Shown piece after piece: positions 49,054 to 57,857 of a stretch of 64,000 bases of DNA. The stretch lies in assembly GCF_013408175.1 (NCBI RefSeq), contig NZ_JACBYW010000001.1, forward strand, positions 186,001-250,000. The letters run 5' to 3'. The notes below the pieces were generated by a model. That model worked only from the letters and a program-made list of their open reading frames with translations, did no database searches and was not told the DNA's origin. Made by a program: the position numbers and the translations under genes. Every line of letters starts with the position of its first letter. The stretch's first letter is position 1. Source of the stretch: Actinopolyspora biskrensis (GTDB lineage Bacteria; Actinomycetota; Actinomycetes; Mycobacteriales; Pseudonocardiaceae).

Positions 49054-49072
49054 GGTCGGCGGGTCTTTTCGC

Positions 49073-49269
49073 TTGGCGGTTCGGGTGGCGGAACCTCTCG
49101 CGGGCTCTCGCTCCGGCCAGGCCCGACATCGGGTAGCCACCTGCACAACGTCGGGCCTTCCTCGCGAGAGCACCACGAGAGAACCCGCGGCGGTGCCGAC
49201 TGCCCGGGCTCGTAAGCGCTTGCGTCGGAGGAGAGCCCCTTGGTCGGGAGTTCTGACGGGATCTCGGCG
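49073..49269 (+). repeat. Dispersed modular repeat, copy A
   Basis: The core 49085-49190 matches 57732-57835 in reverse orientation nearly base for base, and 53313-53430 more distantly. It folds into three nested stems: CTCTCG/CGAGAG (49095-49100, 49176-49181), GCTCTCGC/GCGAGAGC (49104-49111, 49164-49171) and GGCCCGAC/GTCGGGCC (49120-49127, 49150-49157). The following 80 bp match copy D. It lies 20 bp after ruvB in a 506-bp gap. The rest of the gap to yajC (49270-49559) shows no gene. Confidence 0.88.
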
Positions 49270-49559
49270 CAGCAGCGAGCGTTCGCGCGACCGGGACGAC
49301 GAAGCCTCGCCGAGAGAGGGCGGGTGGGCTTGCGCACGTTTGCGCGCTCTCCGCGGGGGAAGCCGGGGCGTGCGCGCCGCTCGGCCCTGTGCGCTGGGAC
49401 ACAGCCCGTCGAGGTGAAGGGTTCCGGGTAGGCCCGTTTCACCGCAGGTGAGCCTGGCACACTGGAGGCGGTACATCCGAACAGTCCGGGCGCCGGTGGT
49501 GCACGGCTCCGTTGTCGCGGTCGCCGCGCTGTCCGGGAGACGTCCGTGGATGGAGCAAG

Positions 49560-49919
49560 ATGGAAGGCCTGATTTTTCCGATTCTGCTCGTCGGCATCGC
49601 CGCGATGCTGTTCTTCCAGATGCGCAAGCAGCGGAAGGCGATGAGCGAACAGCAGAAGCTGCAGAACTCGTTGACGGTCGGTGACCGCGTCATGACCACC
49701 TCGGGGCTTTTCGGCACCGTCGTGGAGACGAACGACGATTCCCTCGATCTCGAAATCGCCGATGGTGTCGTCACCACCTGGTTGCGTCAGGCGATCAGGG
49801 AGAAGGTCAACTCCGAGGCCGACGAGGACGACAGCGACGAGGACTCGGACGACGACGAGCTGGCCGATTCCGGTGACGAGGAGACGGTCGACAGCACCGA
49901 GAAGCAGAAGACCAGCTGA
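49560..49919 (+). CDS. yajC: Preprotein translocase accessory subunit YajC
   Basis: The 119-residue protein has one N-terminal membrane helix (LIFPILLVGIAAMLFF), the QRKAMSEQQKLQNSLTVGDRVMTTSGLFGTVVE core of YajC, and a very acidic tail (about residues 87-115, rich in Asp and Glu). It works with SecDF at the SecYEG channel. GGAG lies 5 bp before the ATG at 49560. Confidence 0.94.
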   Translation: MEGLIFPILLVGIAAMLFFQMRKQRKAMSEQQKLQNSLTVGDRVMTTSGLFGTVVETNDDSLDLEIADGVVTTWLRQAIREKVNSEADEDDSDEDSDDDELADSGDEETVDSTEKQKTS

Positions 49920-50309
49920 CGGGCGCGCTCGTCGGTCCGTCGGACCGCGTGGCGCGCTGAGGATCGAATGCCGCACCGGACACGTGTGCGCGAGACGGTT
50001 CGTGTCCGGTGGCGGGTTCTCGCCATCGACGTGTGCGATTCTCCCCGGCTGAACACGCGGAACACCGCGCGCCGAGGTGATCCGCGCGGAAAGCGACACG
50101 GATCATGGTGGCAAGCACGCGGGTCCGCGGATATGTTGCCGACGTCCCCTCCCGACGGGAGGGGGCGAACATGTGACCTGTCAAACTGAACAGCGCTGTC
50201 GCGCAGTTACCGTGCGGCGCGTCGCGTCGTGCCGGACCGGTGCGACGGCGTGGCTCTGGACGACTGCTGGACCTTCGGCACCGACCTCGGACGAGGAGAC
50301 AGACCTAAC
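49920..50309. other. yajC-secD gap with three hairpins
   Basis: This 390-bp gap is long for an operon. It holds CGGTCCG-T-CGGACCG (49933-49947), CCGGACACG/CGTGTCCGG (49976-49984, 50001-50009) and CCCCTCCC-GAC-GGGAGGGG (50146-50153, 50157-50164). The last has a 3-nt loop and could terminate or attenuate transcription ahead of secD. No convincing gene is seen. Confidence 0.5.
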
Positions 50310-52019
50310 GTGGCACCTCCACGCGGGCAGATCCGGCCGGCACGCTACTTGCTGGCCTTCGTGGTGATTCTCCTGGGTATATACAGCCTGGTGTTCTTCA
50401 CCGGCGACCGCAAACCCACCCCGGAGCTGGGAATCGATCTACAGGGTGGCACCCGGGTCACGTTGACGGCCCGCACTCCCAACGGGAAGCCACCGAGCGA
50501 CGAGTCGCTGAAGCAGGCTCGGCAGATCATCGAACAACGGGTCAACGGGCTCGGGGTGAGCGGCTCCGAGGTGACCATCGACGGGACGAACCTGGTCATC
50601 ACCGTGCCCGGCAAGGACGGGGAGCAGGCCAAGCGGCTCGGCCAGACCGCGGAGCTGAACCTCCGCCAGGTCAAGCAGGCCGTTCCCGTCTCGGCCACCC
50701 AGGGCGGTCAGGGCGGCCAAGCTCCCCAGCAGGGTGACGGCTCCGGCGCCTCGGGCCAGGAAGATCCGGCGAACACGGCTCCGCAGGCTGCCGCCCAGCG
50801 GGCCCAGGCCCAGCAGCAGGACCCGGGCCAGCAGGGGGACTCCTCCGGGGAGCAGGCACCCGGCCAGAACGGCGACGACGCCTCCAGGGCCGAGCGCATC
50901 GAGCAGGCGAAGAAGCTGCGGCAGAGCGAGAACCCAGCGATACAGCGTCAGGCGGTCATGGCGCTGGACTGCAGCGCCCCCGACCCGCTGCGCGGCCACG
51001 CCGATCCGAAGAAGCCGCTGGTGACCTGCGGCCAGGACGGAGAGCGCAAGTACATCCTCGAGCCGGTGCTGATCCCCGGCACCCAGATCGCCGACGCGAA
51101 CTCCGCCCCGCCGGGTGAGCGCAAGCCCGAGTGGACCGTGAACCTGAACTTCAAGCAGCAGGGCAGCGGGACCTGGGCCGACTTCACGTCCCAGAACGTC
51201 GGCCAGCAGGTCGGCTTCGTCCTGGACAACCAGGTGGTCTCGGCCCCGTCGATCAACAGTGCGATCGTCGGCGGCAACACGCAGATCACGGGTGACTTCA
51301 ACCAGGAGGAGGCCGAGAACCTGGCCAACACCCTCAAGTACGGCTCCCTGCCGCTGGCCTTCGACCAGTCGACGGCCGAGACGGTCTCGCCCACCCTGGG
51401 CATAGCCTCCCTGGAGGCGGCCCTGCTCGCGGGCGGCATCGGGCTGATCCTGGTCGCGGGCTACTGCCTGGTCTACTACCGACTGCTCGGACTGCTGACC
51501 ATCCTCTCGCTGGTGCTGTCCGGCGCGGTCGTCTACGGCGTGCTGGTGCTGTTCGGGCGTTGGATCGGCTTCACGCTCGACCTGCCCGGCATGGCCGGAT
51601 TCATCATCGCGATCGGAATCACCGCGGACTCGTTCATCGTGTTCTTCGAACGCCTCAAGGACGAGATCCGCGAGGGCAGGACCTTCCGGTCCGCGGTGCC
51701 GCGCTCCTGGGCACGAGCGCGCAGAACCATCCTCTCCGCGGACACGGTCAGTTTCCTCGCCGCCGGGGTGCTGTACCTGCTGGCGGTCGGACAGGTGAAG
51801 GGCTTCGCGTTCACGCTCGGGATGTCGACGGTGCTGGACCTGATCGTCGTGTTCCTGGTGACCCATCCCCTGGTCGCCCTGGCCTCCCGCAACAAGTTCC
51901 TCTCGCGCCCCGGGCTCTCGGGGCTCGGCGCCGTCCAGCGGATGGGTGAGCGTGCCAGGAGACAACGGCAGGGCAACCAGCAGCAGAGTGCTTCGGGCGG
52001 CACTCCGAAGGAGGCTTGA
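50310..52019 (+). CDS. secD: Protein translocase subunit SecD
   Basis: The 569-residue membrane protein of the RND-like SecDF complex uses the proton gradient to complete export. It shows the first helix, LGIDLQGGTRVTL, the P1 domain, and the C-terminal helices with GMAGFIIAIGITADSFIVFFERLKDE. Between about residues 128 and 195 it carries a Gln/Gly/Ala-rich insert not needed by the family. The GTG at 50310 follows GAGGAGACAG; the longer frame to 50229 is a poor start. secF starts 3 bp after the stop. Confidence 0.95.
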   Translation: MAPPRGQIRPARYLLAFVVILLGIYSLVFFTGDRKPTPELGIDLQGGTRVTLTARTPNGKPPSDESLKQARQIIEQRVNGLGVSGSEVTIDGTNLVITVPGKDGEQAKRLGQTAELNLRQVKQAVPVSATQGGQGGQAPQQGDGSGASGQEDPANTAPQAAAQRAQAQQQDPGQQGDSSGEQAPGQNGDDASRAERIEQAKKLRQSENPAIQRQAVMALDCSAPDPLRGHADPKKPLVTCGQDGERKYILEPVLIPGTQIADANSAPPGERKPEWTVNLNFKQQGSGTWADFTSQNVGQQVGFVLDNQVVSAPSINSAIVGGNTQITGDFNQEEAENLANTLKYGSLPLAFDQSTAETVSPTLGIASLEAALLAGGIGLILVAGYCLVYYRLLGLLTILSLVLSGAVVYGVLVLFGRWIGFTLDLPGMAGFIIAIGITADSFIVFFERLKDEIREGRTFRSAVPRSWARARRTILSADTVSFLAAGVLYLLAVGQVKGFAFTLGMSTVLDLIVVFLVTHPLVALASRNKFLSRPGLSGLGAVQRMGERARRQRQGNQQQSASGGTPKEA

Positions 52020-52022
52020 GGC

Positions 52023-53279
52023 GTGGACACCACCGGAAGCAACGGGAACGCTCCGGCCGCGGACAGCGGTGCGAACACGGCGGGTCGCAAGAGCGGGGTG
52101 CTGCACCGCCTCTACACGGGCACCGGTGCCTTCGACATCGTCGGCAAGCGCAAGTACTGGTACGTGATCCTCGGGCTGCTGATGTTGGCCTCGGCCGCCT
52201 CGATCGGCATCAAGGGGTTCAACCTCAGCCTCGAGTTCGAGGGCGGGACCAGCATCTCGATGCCCGCCCAGGGAGCCTCCGGGCAGATCACCACCGAGCA
52301 GGTCGAGAGCACGTTCCGGGACACGCTCGACGAGGACCCCTCCTCGGTTCAGCTGGTCGGCAGCGGTGGCTCGCAGACGGTGCAGATCAGCACCGAGAAG
52401 CTCAGCGTCCAGCAGGTCGGCGAGGTCAAAACGGCGCTCTACGAGGATCTGCGCCCGCTCGGGGCGAACGGTCAGCCGAGCGCGGAGGCCATCAGTGACA
52501 GCGCCGTCAGCGGGACCTGGGGCAACGAGATCACCAGGCAGGCGTTGATCGCGCTGGGCGTGTTCCTCGCGCTGGTCACCGTGTTCCTCGTCTTCTACTT
52601 CGAGCGCTGGATGGCCGTGGGCGCGCTGGTAGCGCTGGTCCACGACGTGCTGGTCACGGCGGGGATCTACTCGATGACCGGCTTCGAGGTCAGCCCGAGC
52701 ACGGTGATCGGCCTGCTGACCATCCTCGGGTTCTCGCTCTACGACACGGTCGTGGTCTTCGACAAGGTCAAGGAGAACACCTCCGGTCTGTTGAGCGTGA
52801 CCCGTCGCACCTATCCGGAGGCGGCGAACCTCGCGGTCAACCAGTCCCTGATGCGTTCGATCAACACTTCGGTGATCGCCCTGCTGCCCGTGCTGGGGCT
52901 GTTGTTCGTCGGTGCGGGACTGCTCGGTGTCGGCGTGCTGCGCGACCTGGCGCTCGTCCAGGGGATCGGCATGATCGCGGGTGTGTTCTCCTCGCTGCTG
53001 CTGGCCACTCCGCTGCTGGTCGACCTGAAGATGCGCGACCCCAAGTACCGCGCGCAGCGGGACAAGGTCGTGCAGCGCAGGGAGAACCGCAGTGAGACGA
53101 GCGAGCAGCCGGACACGGGCGAGGACGCCCCCGCGGGGGGAACCGGCGAGCGGCCGAGGCGCAACGGCTCCGCGGCCCGGATGGCCGGGGCCGGGGCCGC
53201 GAAGGGATCCGGACCCTCGGAGCAGGCACGCCCGTCCGGCAAGGCTCAACGCCGAGCCGGGGAGCGAAGGCGCAGGTGA
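52023..53279 (+). CDS. secF: Protein translocase subunit SecF
   Basis: The 418-residue partner of SecD has six predicted helices, the FDIVGKRKYWYVI start, LEFEGGTSI, and the conserved TILGFSLYDTVVVFDKVKEN with RSINTSVIALLPVLGLLF. A long basic, low-complexity tail of about 75 residues follows. GTG at 52023 uses the AAGGAGG lying in the secD 3' end. apt, the usual next gene in actinobacteria, is absent; repeat copy B is there instead. Confidence 0.95.
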   Translation: MDTTGSNGNAPAADSGANTAGRKSGVLHRLYTGTGAFDIVGKRKYWYVILGLLMLASAASIGIKGFNLSLEFEGGTSISMPAQGASGQITTEQVESTFRDTLDEDPSSVQLVGSGGSQTVQISTEKLSVQQVGEVKTALYEDLRPLGANGQPSAEAISDSAVSGTWGNEITRQALIALGVFLALVTVFLVFYFERWMAVGALVALVHDVLVTAGIYSMTGFEVSPSTVIGLLTILGFSLYDTVVVFDKVKENTSGLLSVTRRTYPEAANLAVNQSLMRSINTSVIALLPVLGLLFVGAGLLGVGVLRDLALVQGIGMIAGVFSSLLLATPLLVDLKMRDPKYRAQRDKVVQRRENRSETSEQPDTGEDAPAGGTGERPRRNGSAARMAGAGAAKGSGPSEQARPSGKAQRRAGERRRR

Positions 53280-53312
53280 CCTTCTTAGAGAGTGCGCGGC
53301 TTGGTCTGCTTG

Positions 53313-53455
53313 GGTGGTTCCGTGGGGGAACCTCGGTCGGGGTCTCGCTGCGGGTGCCCCGACATCGGGTAGCGGTTCTGCACAACGTCGGGACCGTCCT
53401 CGCGAGACCCGAGACTGAGAACCCCCGGCGGCGCCGATTGCGCGGGTGGTGAAAA
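53313..53455 (+). repeat. Dispersed modular repeat, copy B
   Basis: This diverged copy has the same order as copy A: GGTTCC/GGAACC, a GGTCTCGC/GCGAGACC stem (53341-53348, 53402-53409), and CCCGAC/GTCGGG with the shared loop ATCGGGTAGC...CTGCACAAC, then GGCGCCGATTGCGCGGG matching the downstream part of A. The second stem differs from A at both paired positions. It fills the gap between secF and rel. The rest of 53280-53849 has no gene. Confidence 0.82.
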
Positions 53456-53849
53456 GCGGCCGCGCCGCTCGACCGACACCCGGCCCGAGCGAGCACTCGC
53501 TCAACCCGCACGGGTTTCTCGGTCCCCGCAGCGATCCGCCGTGCGGCCCTTGCCGGGTCGCGCGGCGGATTTTTCGTGGGACCGTCCTGCTCGTGAGCCG
53601 GTGGGACCTGCTCGCGAAGTGATCGGCCGGACGGGTCACGGGATCGGTTCAGATCGGTTCGGCCGCTGCCCCGCCGGGTGATCCGCAGCACTTTGCGACC
53701 GCCGAGCGCGGCACGGGGGCGACGGGGAAGTTCGATCGGCCGGTGCAGCGTTATGCTCGATGTCCGGGTCATACACCGGACACCTCGGGTGTGCCGTGAC
53801 GAAGTGGACCCGGGGCGAGAGCGGATCCTCGAGTGCCCGGGAGCGTGCT

Positions 53850-56159
53850 GTGAGCCAAGAAGCCGAGTCCCCTGCGACCGAGTCCTCCGGGCAGCGACCG
53901 GCCTCGGCGACCCGACGGGTTCGCGCGCGGTTGGCCCGGCGGATAACCGCGCAGCGACCCACCCAGGTCAAGCAGGTCCTCGAACCGCTTGCCTCGGTGC
54001 ACCGCGAGCTGCATCCCCAGGCCGACCTGGGGCTGCTCCAGCGGGCCTACGACGTCGCCGAGGAGCAGCACAGCACGCAGCAGCGCAAGTCGGGCGATCC
54101 CTACATCACGCACCCGCTGGCCGTCGCGACCATCCTCGCCGAGCTGGGAATGGACACGACCACGCTCGTCGCGGCGCTGCTGCACGACACGGTCGAGGAC
54201 ACCGACTACCCGCTGGACCAGTTGCGCGCCGACTTCGGCGAGGAGGTCTCGCACCTGGTCGACGGGGTCACCAAGCTGGACAAGGTCAAGCTCGGAACGG
54301 CCGCCGAGGCCGAGACCATCCGCAAGATGGTCATCGCGATGGCCCGCGACCCGCGCGTGGTCGTGATCAAGCTGGCCGACCGGTTGCACAACATGCGGAC
54401 CATGCGTTTCCTGCCGCCCGAGAAGCAGGTGCGCAAGGCGCGCGAGACCCTCGAAGTCCTGGCTCCGCTGGCGCATCGGCTCGGCATGGCCACGATCAAG
54501 TGGGAGCTGGAGGACCTGGCCTTCGCCATCCTGCAGCCGAAGAAGTACGACGAGATCGTGCGGCTGGTCGCCAACCGGGCTCCCTCCAGGGACATCTACC
54601 TGCGTCAGGTCGTCGACGAGATCTCCGGCAACCTGGACGCCGCGCGGCTGTCGGCGAAGGTGGAGGGCAGGCCGAAGCACTACTACTCGATCCACCAGAA
54701 GATGATCGTGCGGGGCCGGGACTTCGACGACATCCACGATCTGGTGGGCGTGCGGATCCTCGTCGACCAGGTGCGGGACTGCTACGCGGCCATGGGGGTG
54801 GTCCACGCGCTGTGGCAGCCGATGCCGGGGCGCTTCAAGGACTACATCGCGCAGCCGAAGTTCGGCGTGTACCAGTCGCTGCACACCACCGTGATCGGAC
54901 CGGAGGGCAAACCTCTCGAGATCCAGATCCGTACCGAGGAGATGCACCGGACGGCCGAGTACGGCATCGCCGCGCACTGGCGGTACAAGGAGTCCAAGGG
55001 CCGCGGTCGGGGCGGCGCGGGCGTCGAGATCGACGAGATGGCGTGGATGCGCCAGCTGCTGGACTGGCAGCGCGAGGCGGCCGATCCGGGCGAGTTCCTG
55101 GAGTCGCTGCGCTACGACCTCAACACGAGGGAGATCTTCGTGTTCACCCCGAAGGGCGACGTGATCACGCTGCCCGCGGGCTCCACCCCCGTCGACTTCG
55201 CCTACGCGGTCCACACCGAGGTCGGGCACCGGTGCATCGGTTCCAGGGTGAACGGCAGGCTCGTCGCTCTGGAACGCAAGCTGGAGAACGGCGAGGTCGT
55301 GGAGATCTTCACCTCGAAGGCGGAGGGCTCGGGGCCCAGCCGCGACTGGCTGTCCTTCGTGGCCTCGCCGCGGGCCAAGACCAAGATCAAGCAGTGGTTC
55401 GCCAAGGAACGCCGCGAAGAGGCGATCGAGTCCGGAAAGCAGGCGATAGCCAAGGAGCTGCGCAGGCTCGGTCTGCCGGTGCAGCGGTTGGTCTCGGCCG
55501 ACTCGATCGGCTCGGTGGCCAAGGAACTGCACTACACGGACGTCACGGCGCTCTACGCGGCCGTGGGGGAACGTCAGGTTTCCGCGCACCACGTGGTGCA
55601 GCGGTTGGTCGCCTCCCTCGGAGGTGTGGAGCAGGCCGAGGACGAGATCGCCGAGAGGTCCACCCCGTCCACGGTCCAGCAGCAGCGCCGGTCCTCCGGC
55701 GACTCCGGTGTGCGCGTGGAGGGAGCAGGCGCCGGCGAGGTGTGGGCCAAGCTGGCGCGTTGCTGCACCCCGGTTCCCGGCGACGAGATCCTCGGCTTCG
55801 TCACCAGGGGCGGCGGGGTCAGCGTGCACCGCACCGACTGCAACAACGCCGGTAACCTGCGCAACAAGCCCGAGCGCCTGGTCGAGGTCTACTGGGCCCC
55901 CTCGAACTCCTCGGTCTTCCTCGTGGCGATCCAGGTGGAGGCACTGGACCGGCACCGGCTGCTCTCGGACGTGACGAAGGTGCTCGCCGACGAGAAGGTC
56001 AACATCCTGTCGGCCTCGGTGACCACGTCGAAGGACCGCGTCGCGGTGAGCCGGTTCTCCTTCGAGATGGGCGATCCCAAGCACCTCGGCCACGTGCTCA
56101 AGGCGGTGCGCAACATCGAAGGGGTCTACGACGTCTACCGCATGACCTCGGCGGCGTGA
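53850..56159 (+). CDS. rel: Bifunctional (p)ppGpp synthetase/hydrolase Rel
   Basis: The 769-residue RSH protein carries the HD hydrolase domain ([16 protein letters not shown]...[10 protein letters not shown]), the synthetase domain ([37 protein letters not shown]), a TGS domain ([20 protein letters not shown]), a zinc-finger/conserved-Cys region ([16 protein letters not shown]) and a C-terminal ACT domain. The basic RGRD before FDDIHD fits the bifunctional class. It drives the stringent response. The GTG at 53850 follows GGGAG; GTG/ATG codons upstream to 53760 lack good sites. Confidence 0.95.
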
Positions 56160-56202
56160 TCGGGCCGCTGCGCACCGCTCCCGTGCGTGCCGGGGGCGCG
56201 GC

Positions 56203-56230
56203 GCGTGCCGGGGGCGCGCCCCCGGCACGC
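56203..56230. terminator. Perfect 28-bp palindrome between convergent genes
   Basis: GCGTGCCGGGGGCG at 56203-56216 is followed directly by its full complement to 56230, without a spacer. It lies between the convergent rel and cyclophilin genes and can act as a terminator for both. Confidence 0.7.
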
Positions 56231-56235
56231 CGTGC

Positions 56236-57096
56236 TCAGGACGAGATCTTGACGTCCTCGAAGTTGATTTTCTCGTTCGGGTGACCACCGCCCGCTCTGG
56301 AGAAGGAGCCGTCGTGGCCCGCGCGGGCCACCTCGTCGACCACCTTCAGTCCCTCGTCCGAGACGGTTCCGAAAACCGTGTAGTCGGACTGCAGCGGCGC
56401 CTCGCCGTAGACGATGAAGAACTGGCTGCCGTTGGTGTTCGGCCCGGAGTTGGCCATGGCGAGGTAACCGCGCCCGTAGTCGATGTTCGAGTAGGTCTCG
56501 TCGTCGAACTGGTAGCCGGGCCCGTTCTCGCCGGTGCCCTTCGGGTCGCCGCACTGCAGCATCTGCAGCTGCTGCGTGGAGAGCCGGTGGCACGGGGCGT
56601 CGTCGTAGAAGTCGGCCTCGGCGAGGTGGACGAAGCTGTTGACCGTGCACGGGGCCAGGGAGCGGTCGAGGGTGACCGGGATGCTGCCGCGGTTCGTCTC
56701 GATCGTGGCGTCGACGGCCCCCTCGGAACTCACCTCTCCGTTCTCCGGGGGATCCACCGGTTTCGCGGGTTCGCCCGCGGACCGGTACTCGCAGGAGACC
56801 TGCGCGGGCAGCGGTTCCGGCCGGGAGGGGGACGGAGCGCGCTCACTCGGTATGGAGACCGTCGATTCCCGGGAGCTCGTGGGTTGTTCCGTGCCGCTCT
56901 CGGAGGGAGTGCCCGCCGCGTTCTGACCACCGCCCGAGCGGGTCAGGAAGTACACCCCCACCACGGCGGCTATCACCACCACGATGGTCGTGGTCACTGC
57001 GATGGTTCTGCGTTTGCGTGCCTGCTCCTCCCTGCGAGCGAGCTGGCGTTCGAGCTTGCTCTTGGCGGCTTGACGGCGTTGTTCGTTGCTGGACAC
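56236..57096 (-). CDS. Membrane-anchored cyclophilin-type peptidyl-prolyl isomerase
   Basis: The 286-residue protein has a basic N terminus with coiled character, one membrane helix (about residues 33-52, TIAVTTTIVVVIAAVVGVYFLT), a Ser/Pro/Glu-rich linker, and an extracytoplasmic cyclophilin domain (about 120-286) with FVHLAEADFYDDAPCHRL, AMANSGPNTNGSQFFI and YTVFGTV. It should help fold exported proteins. The GTG at 57096 gives the usual length; an ATG at 57183 would add 29 residues. It holds its conserved place next to rel. Confidence 0.92.
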   Translation of the reverse strand: MSSNEQRRQAAKSKLERQLARREEQARKRRTIAVTTTIVVVIAAVVGVYFLTRSGGGQNAAGTPSESGTEQPTSSRESTVSIPSERAPSPSRPEPLPAQVSCEYRSAGEPAKPVDPPENGEVSSEGAVDATIETNRGSIPVTLDRSLAPCTVNSFVHLAEADFYDDAPCHRLSTQQLQMLQCGDPKGTGENGPGYQFDDETYSNIDYGRGYLAMANSGPNTNGSQFFIVYGEAPLQSDYTVFGTVSDEGLKVVDEVARAGHDGSFSRAGGGHPNEKINFEDVKISS

Positions 57097-57474
57097 CTGT
57101 TCCCACTCCGTGGTCGCGGTCGGTCGGCTGGGCAGTCCTCGTGTAGATGTTTCGTGGGCTGTCGGTTCCGGTACGTGAGCCATACCCGCTCGGGACGGGG
57201 ATCCGGAGTGCGGACCCCGCACCACGTGCCGGTCGCGCTCACGGGCCGGGGCCGGAAAGTCCGCGGGGTGCGGAGCACCGGCGTGTGGATGAACGACTCC
57301 CGCCCCCGTTCGGGTGCGGTCGTCGAGCACGCACGGACCCGATCCGTGCGGAGCCCGTTCCGGAGGGGGCACCGCGCGGATCACGCCTTCGGGGAGTGTA
57401 GAACGGCCCGGTGTGCGAAAACCGTGAGACCGCACGCCAGGAAGGTCGGCGGTGCCGGTTGCTTGCGTGATTGC
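57097..57474. other. Upstream region of the cyclophilin gene
   Basis: About 380 bp lie between the cyclophilin start and repeat copy C. The cyclophilin frame stays open upstream to about 57435 but without a motif. A GTGCGG-ACC-CCGCAC hairpin is at 57208-57222. No other gene is seen. Confidence 0.4.
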
Positions 57475-57857
57475 TTAGCCGTCGCGTGAGTCGGCGCCTT
57501 GCTGCGTTGGGCCGCTCTTGAGTGGCGGCCTACGCGGCGAGCGGCCCGGCCTTGCGATGCATCCGACTCGCGCACCGGAGCTTCTCGTTCCAGGTAGGTT
57601 GAAGCGCTCGCGTCGACCGAGGCCTTTCGCCGGAAGTGCGCAGCGTTCTCCTGCGGCGCGGGCAGCGCCGAGCTGCCGGAAGAAGGACACCGTCCAACGC
57701 GAGTGCTTACGAGCCTGCGCAACCCGACCGACCGCGGGTTCTCTCGTGGTGCTCTCGCGAGGAAGGCCCGACGTGGCGTGTGGCTACTCGATGTCGGGCC
57801 TGGCCGGAGCGAGAGCCCGCGAGAGGTTCCGCCACGGAACCACCTACGCCAACCGAG
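57475..57857. repeat. Dispersed modular repeat, copy C (longest)
   Basis: This 383-bp element carries three modules: the 114-bp module shared with copy D (57475-57588), a linker shared with D and E (57603-57638), and, in reverse, the structured core shared with copy A (57732-57835), ending in the 41-bp module (57817-57857) shared with E and F. The core stems GCTCTCGC/GCGAGAGC (57751-57758, 57809-57816) and GGCCCGAC/GTCGGGCC (57765-57772, 57793-57800) are intact. It lies between the divergent cyclophilin and hydrolase genes. Confidence 0.88.

Follow-up and report, generated by a model that had tools for sequence, protein, structure and literature searches.

A hairpin-forming intergenic repeat of Actinopolyspora and related genera as a probable MITE-type element of IS5-family kind

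What is the hairpin-forming repeat that occupies three intergenic gaps of the Actinopolyspora biskrensis chromosome, and what keeps it folded? The window, the whole stretch of 64 kb analysed here, covers positions 186001-250000 of contig C1 of genome G000 (A. biskrensis), a 4.95-Mb draft. An earlier note on this DNA had described three intergenic copies, here called A, B and C, the last inverted, and had suggested either a non-autonomous mobile element or a structured noncoding RNA, with selection on a folded hairpin of RNA or DNA. The copies lie where the note placed them. With a probability of roughly three in four, the repeat belongs to the miniature inverted-repeat transposable element (MITE) type: a small DNA transposon that encodes no protein and depends in trans on an IS5-family transposase carrying the domains DUF4096 and DDE_Tnp_1.

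Spread and covariation of the hairpin core

The three copies are members of a large family. A BLAST search with copy A gives at least 45 matches in the A. biskrensis genome (40 of 285 candidates scored), and the covariance model R1, derived from an alignment of 31 copies of that genome, gives at least 146 at E values up to 0.01 (of 9514 candidates, 150 were scored), the seven weakest having E above 0.001. The core is 119 nt long and non-coding, and reaches at least 145 matches in G005 and at least 136 in G009, two other genomes of the genus. R1 matches all ten Actinopolyspora genomes, nine with at least 59 matches each; G006 has only 3. In other genera of the family Pseudonocardiaceae, 6 of 27 genomes match, with 7 to 57 copies each, and the 24 genomes searched in the order's other families give no match under strict filters. 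A second model, R2, combines 36 copies from seven genera and, under strict filters, finds the repeat in 69 of the 249 genomes of the family and in 14 of the 46 genera; in a class-wide draw of 394 genomes, searched with strict filters, matches are confined to A. biskrensis and one other family member, with none outside the family. Actinopolyspora, Halopolyspora, Saccharopolyspora and Amycolatopsis are all represented among the 80 loci listed by a pattern scan of named genomes.

The cross-genus comparison shows ends, GTGGCGGAACCT and AGAACCCGCGG, that are largely constant, and stems that are rewritten yet still pair. Near-invariant internal loops punctuate the core (GCGG-AAC-CT...AG-AAC-CCGC), with TCCTCGC on the 3' side. 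In A4, a plain MAFFT alignment of 36 diverse copies with 30 pairs, 96.0% of cells are paired versus 78.5% after shuffling, two-sided changes occur at 18 of the 30 pairs, and the covariation score is 0.423 versus 0.119 (0 of 500 shuffles as high). Sliding the partner strand reduces pairing to 41-55%, a comparison in which the structure, being predicted from A4 itself, is favoured over its slid versions. The 111 model-fitted copies are 95.4% paired, with two-sided changes at 23 of 30 pairs and 524 two-sided cells versus 139 when shuffled. The 31 copies of the A. biskrensis genome, taken by themselves, show weak covariation, with a term of -0.59 kcal/mol and 7 of 28 pairs.

Several expectations of the earlier note are thereby borne out: copies exist well beyond the three and in related genera, the covariation far exceeds shuffled and slid controls, and it backs a kept folded form. 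Its remark that no named family fits also stands. Rfam returns nothing but tRNAs over the window at gathering scores, and nothing near any family cut-off for copy A and four further loci. A description of the repeat was not found in the open-licence literature searched, and the excerpt available of a study of small-RNA prediction in S. erythraea (PMC3827479) does not mention it.

Two further observations bear on whether the folded molecule is RNA or DNA. Outside a fixed G-U column, stem mismatches comprise 56 G-U and 56 A-C cells, counts that come from related rather than independent copies; 20 of the A-C cells belong to one end-of-helix pair, and the counts become 56 and 36 when this pair is removed. 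The equal counts do not show the G-U excess that might mark an RNA strand. Of the 111 copies, the antisense strand gives the better fold in 97 when DNA energies are used and in 101 with RNA energies.

Unit ends, the IS5-family element and polymorphism

The outer parts of the element are cleaner in Saccharopolyspora copies. In S. rosea the left end gives 143 matches at up to 3 mismatches versus 0 in the control. Among the 30 best places, which were read for unit ends, the right end is recognisable within 400 bp in 20, and 13 of these 20 units carry an identical TNA 3-mer on both sides, so that TNA flanks GAGCCTGTCTTCGAACTCG...TTCAAAGACAGGCAC to the left and right. Half of the 20 units are 231-234 bp long and the remainder 119-336 bp. 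By a motif test, 10 of the 30 places directly abut the arm of another core.

A candidate autonomous partner resides in the same genome. At locus L322, an insertion sequence (IS) of the IS5 family with ends GTGCCTGTCTTTGATC is inserted in a core arm and holds a 277-aa open reading frame (ORF) with Pfam matches to DUF4096 (PF13340, 1.2e-27) and DDE_Tnp_1 (PF01609, 1.5e-23). S. rosea contains nine full copies of the ~962-bp IS5-family element, eight of which match the query protein at 100% identity, and the ends and duplication of this IS are of the same kind as those of the hairpin unit. Over 25 IS places in S. rosea and genomes G021 and G022, identical TNA 3-mers are found at 23, namely 17 of the 18 with unambiguous ends and 6 of the 7 others; the measured length is 1000-1014 bp at 7 of the 25, where one end is taken from a neighbouring unit. 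The IS abuts a core arm in 5 of 9 S. rosea places by motif, with three more by eye (L424, L425, L427), in 2 of 5 in G021 with at least one more by eye (L419), and in 0 of 8 in G022, where one is seen by eye (L434).

By the features examined, namely terminal inverted repeats, target duplication and a same-ended autonomous element, the S. rosea units are MITEs. These inverted repeats, the 3-bp target duplications and the matching IS5-family element support the suggestion of a non-autonomous mobile element, as does the presence or absence of the core between close species of Actinopolyspora. As a separate observation, IS5-family copies in S. rosea and G021 (L322, L422-L432, L419) often sit in a core arm at CTCAG, in the manner of a landing pad.

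In G021 the left ends, read in 26 of 47 copies with 4 mismatches allowed, fall into 11 of type TGTCTTYGAACTC, 8 of type TGTTTCAGAAGTGG and 7 of neither. The 3' segment of the own type follows in 10 of 11 and 4 of 8, respectively, and that of the other type in none.

Polymorphism in Actinopolyspora was read from about 400 kb of the A. biskrensis genome set against the matching parts of G001 and G005, with flanks 83-97% identical. The 14 A. biskrensis copies above 60 bits have a same-place match in both relatives (5), in one (5) or in neither (4); for one of the last four, the right flank lies beyond the G005 stretch. Two copies of G005 (entries 45 and 51) are absent from A. biskrensis, and there the gap is shorter by 230 and 232 bp. 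Insertion polymorphism is present between the three relatives, and some of the differences look like loss of the core instead of clean empty sites. The site of copy A is filled in all three genomes, with a 5' outer segment that differs between A. biskrensis and the other two. At the site of copy B, G005 and G001 lack the core but retain a 5' segment together with a 3' hairpin; a reading of this place as a clean empty site was rejected, since the alignments show remnants. Many Actinopolyspora copies continue on their 3' side into further repeat modules. When seven Actinopolyspora genomes are compared with the S. rosea IS5 protein, strong matches appear in G002 and G009 only (56% identity), the other five giving weak ones, and no matching element ends were seen beside the IS5-like matches in Actinopolyspora. 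The window copies carry the homologous core, are mobile or at least polymorphic and behave like a MITE; they are not filed as shown MITEs, because ends and duplications tested negative in this genus.

Placement, orientation and the window copies

Gene contexts come from a crude purpose-made gene finder, not from annotation, and the sets for Actinopolyspora, Saccharopolyspora, Amycolatopsis and G021 are part of the listed loci. A same-strand gene lies upstream in 21/26 copies of G021, 43/50 of Saccharopolyspora, 5/8 of Amycolatopsis and 17/22 of Actinopolyspora, and likewise in 8/14 of A. biskrensis, 6/10 of G001, 10/15 of G005 and 23/30 of the S. rosea places. The core starts 30-40 nt past the stop codon in 13/26, 19/50, 2/8 and 10/22 of the first four sets, and in 6/14 of A. 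biskrensis, 6/10 of G001 and 6/15 of G005. For 14 of the 26 G021 copies the neighbouring genes converge, and their direction leaves the orientation unfixed.

With the origin taken at position 0, orientation follows replication in 44/47 copies of G021, in 32/38 of G084, where this origin is assumed, and in 78/95 among the G022 copies listed (of 121). This origin was checked in G021 and G022 only, where dnaA- and dnaN-like ORFs stand at the record start by eye; the chromosome lengths of G084 and G110 are rounded. In G009, 59/82 copies fit replication with a fitted origin only. An account of orientation as a pure replication effect was rejected; it is contradicted by S. rosea and by G110 with the origin at 0. 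A freely fitted origin gives 26/32 in G110, a value without evidential weight. Large empty tracts are also seen: G005:C2 has no listed copies at about 1.56-3.86 Mb, except one at 3.198 Mb, and G009:C1 has none at 0.014-1.30 Mb. PMC5371812 describes a connection of transposases with the sliding clamp and with orientation.

The features of the window are collected in Table 1. The proteins RuvB, YajC, SecF and RelA/SpoT were named via NCBIfam.

Table 1. Features of the three repeat copies, in window positions
Feature	Position	Strand	Remarks
Copy A, hairpin core	49085..49203	+	between ruvB and yajC; R1 match 147 bits; starts 31 nt past ruvB stop codon (TAG), ORF end 49053
Copy A, 5' outer segment GGTCGGCGGG...	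49054..49084	+	stop codon to core; aligned over 31 copies; putative element boundary
Copy A, paired arms, whole span	49088..49188	+	A4 consensus structure projected onto window
Copy A arms, pairs 1-3	49088-49091/49185-49188; 49095-49102/49174-49181; 49105-49111/49164-49170	+	A4 consensus structure
Copy A arms, pairs 4-6	49115-49116/49160-49161; 49122-49127/49150-49154; 49133-49136/49141-49144	+	A4 consensus structure
Copy B, hairpin core	53322..53441	+	between secF and relA; R1 match 106.6 bits; starts 42 nt past secF stop codon
Copy B, 5' outer segment	53281..53321	+	partly retained in core-less sites of G005 and G001
Copy B, small 3' hairpin AGCGGC...GCCGCT	53455..53469	+	from sequence reading
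Copy C, hairpin core	57719..57835	-	inverted, between two divergent ORFs; R1 match 133.1 bits
Copy C, 5' outer segment	57836..57915	-	inverted repeats I1 and I4
Further repeat modules 3' of copy C	57478..57718	-	CAGGCTCGTAAGCAC... arm and nested GTGCGCGAGTCGG...CCGACTCACGCGAC hairpin; by eye

The two-sided change of the second stem that had been noticed between the copies, GCTCTCGC/GCGAGAGC versus GGTCTCGC/GCGAGACC, is present. The outer stem proposed for copy B, CTCGG/CCGAG, gives way to another pairing when the family is aligned, that of CTCGGT (53332-53337) with ACTGAG (53414-53419). Against dinucleotide shuffles, the fold has z values of -4.0 for copy A and -3.2 for copy B; for copy C they are -3.1 on the sense strand and -6.5 on the other strand. 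Copies B and C both carry GGTTCCG...CGGAACC at their 5' edge (53315-53332; 57825-57845). Its hairpin could rival the base of the core, and it appears in the predicted minimum-energy fold of copy C.

By eye, many copies in other genera likewise have a small hairpin on the 3' side of the core, similar to that of copy B. Outside the 5' segment of copy C lies an apparent cut-off 5' part of a second copy (GAGGGTCGGCGGATCG...). The modules 3' of copy C resemble, by eye, stretches adjoining other copies of the genus, and the inner loop of their nested hairpin, GTAGG...CTAC, is similar to the core loop read backwards. In A. biskrensis, G001 and G005, several other copies have low-scoring inverted matches at a distance of about 100-140 bp.

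Mechanism, alternatives and known systems

The proposed mechanism combines trans mobilisation with a fold that would matter as DNA. An IS5-family transposase would act in trans on the hairpin units, and the same kind of transposase may have moved the Actinopolyspora copies. One common site lies directly 3' of a gene, in the sense orientation, often with the core starting 30-40 nt past the stop codon; TGA and TAA stops would suit a TNA target. Our best guess is that the hairpin matters as DNA, forming where single strands are exposed at the replication fork; a hairpin formed in this way would tie the element to the direction of replication. CTNAG sites in the arms may offer harmless landing sites for further copies and IS. 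A more far-reaching version, which we consider doubtful, treats the core as a functional module: a single strand of DNA that folds on the lagging-strand template, combined with different outer ends (two in G021), oriented by the fork and serving as a landing pad that draws IS5-family insertions off genes. The core would then be selected for its DNA structure and would not be just an internally deleted IS.

Several results weigh against the reading as a MITE-type element or against parts of its mechanism. In Actinopolyspora the ends do not emerge: terminal repeats or target duplications are found in 0 of 58 cases by a strict test, a looser test gives 7 of 39 against a control rate of 18%, and element ends derived from this genus alone were rejected for that reason. 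The same kind of end test in G021 has 4 of 26 reaching 8 of 12. The S. rosea IS5 protein has no close full-length relative in A. biskrensis (best E 1.4e-6), and a transposase for the second G021 end type, TGTTTCAGAAGTGG, was not found in the elements read. For copy B, loss of the core in the sister species is as likely as gain in A. biskrensis. Placement is not uniform either: copy A follows a TAG stop, which misfits TNA, copy C is not 3' of any gene, and a core start 30-40 nt past a stop codon occurs at only 3 of the 30 S. rosea places. With the origin at 0, the orientation bias is modest in G005 (45/68 among the copies listed, of 145) and absent in G110 (17/32); it is also absent in S. rosea (52/100 among the copies listed). 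Two of the 31 own-genome copies, L016 and L021, have arms of different types and poorer stem pairing; they are probably recombinants.

The alternatives differ chiefly in what they make of the fold. It is possible, if tentative, that the core is selected as RNA, as a hairpin in the 3' untranslated region that ends or protects the upstream transcript and is spread by transposition like a mobile terminator. Such a role accords with the starts 30-40 nt past a same-strand stop in G021, Saccharopolyspora and Actinopolyspora, with the predominance of same-strand upstream genes in most sets and with the second small hairpin often seen after the core; terminator-like SPRITE elements are cited in the available part of a MITE review (PMC10969869). 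However, selection on RNA would be expected to favour G-U, and G-U does not outnumber A-C; RNA energies, too, give the sense strand the poorer fold, no long T-run follows the hairpin by eye, and copy C does not lie 3' of a gene. We lean to a DNA role for the folded core, given that G-U and A-C are equally frequent and that several genomes show replication bias, but the sense placement after stops is a serious point for RNA. The pairing might also be unselected, if imperfect palindromes correct themselves by template switching at replication and two-sided changes arise by mutation alone. Long hairpins in multi-copy families, the recombinant-looking arms of L016 and L021 and the almost wholly Watson-Crick pairing would suit this account, but the internal loops (AAC/AAC) remain unpaired, uncorrected and near-identical across genera, and we judge it unlikely.

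Two further explanations concern the mover and the host. The hairpin form, the replication-aligned orientation in some genomes and the inverted copy pairs would suit a REP/REPIN-like or IS200/IS605-derived origin, with a Y1 (HUH) transposase that acts on single-stranded DNA as the mover. That mechanism is not known to make terminal inverted repeats or 3-bp duplications, both of which the S. rosea unit has, and two of the ten genus genomes, G001 and G008, show no Y1_Tnp match yet hold at least 59 repeat matches each; a Y1/RAYT transposase was rejected as the general mover, and this origin is extremely improbable. A host-domesticated polar DNA signal, oriented by replication and repeated by chance, draws on the strong bias in G021 and among the listed G022 copies and on the large chromosome parts that listed copies avoid in G005 and G009. 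It is highly unlikely, given positions that differ between close species, 180 of 249 family genomes without a match under strict filters, and an unbiased S. rosea. In conclusion, the MITE-type reading is preferred. It provides a large, easily searched set of small actinomycete mobile elements, two window copies of which lie 3' of ruvB and secF, and the genomes with and without replication bias can test why a transposon keeps a folded core. To our knowledge, it is unusual for the interior of a MITE-type element to show covariation of the strength seen in a structured RNA.

Among known systems, the S. rosea units resemble IS5-family MITEs in size, lack of coding capacity, high copy number, terminal inverted repeats, TNA duplication and match to a resident IS5. 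The repeat departs from these in having a long core, whose stems covary and whose near-invariant internal loops recur in many genera, and in outer ends that vary by subfamily around a constant core frame and are undetectable in Actinopolyspora. The ERIC or IRU sequences of enterobacteria are intergenic imperfect palindromes of ~120 nt that occur in many copies and have no gene of their own; the repeat is likened to them by this description, not by sequence, and differs in lineage and in having a candidate mobilising IS. A 127-bp RU-1 is named in an excerpt of PMC2759123. REP/BIME and REPIN elements share with the repeat the intergenic palindromes, the inverted pairs and the use as IS landing sites, the last described for REPs in the part available of PMC1525189, whereas the repeat is far longer and has no steady link to a Y1 transposase. 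SPRITE and terminator-like MITEs, in the available part of PMC10969869, offer a hairpin with a proposed action on transcripts; they belong to a different host, and terminator activity of the repeat is putative.

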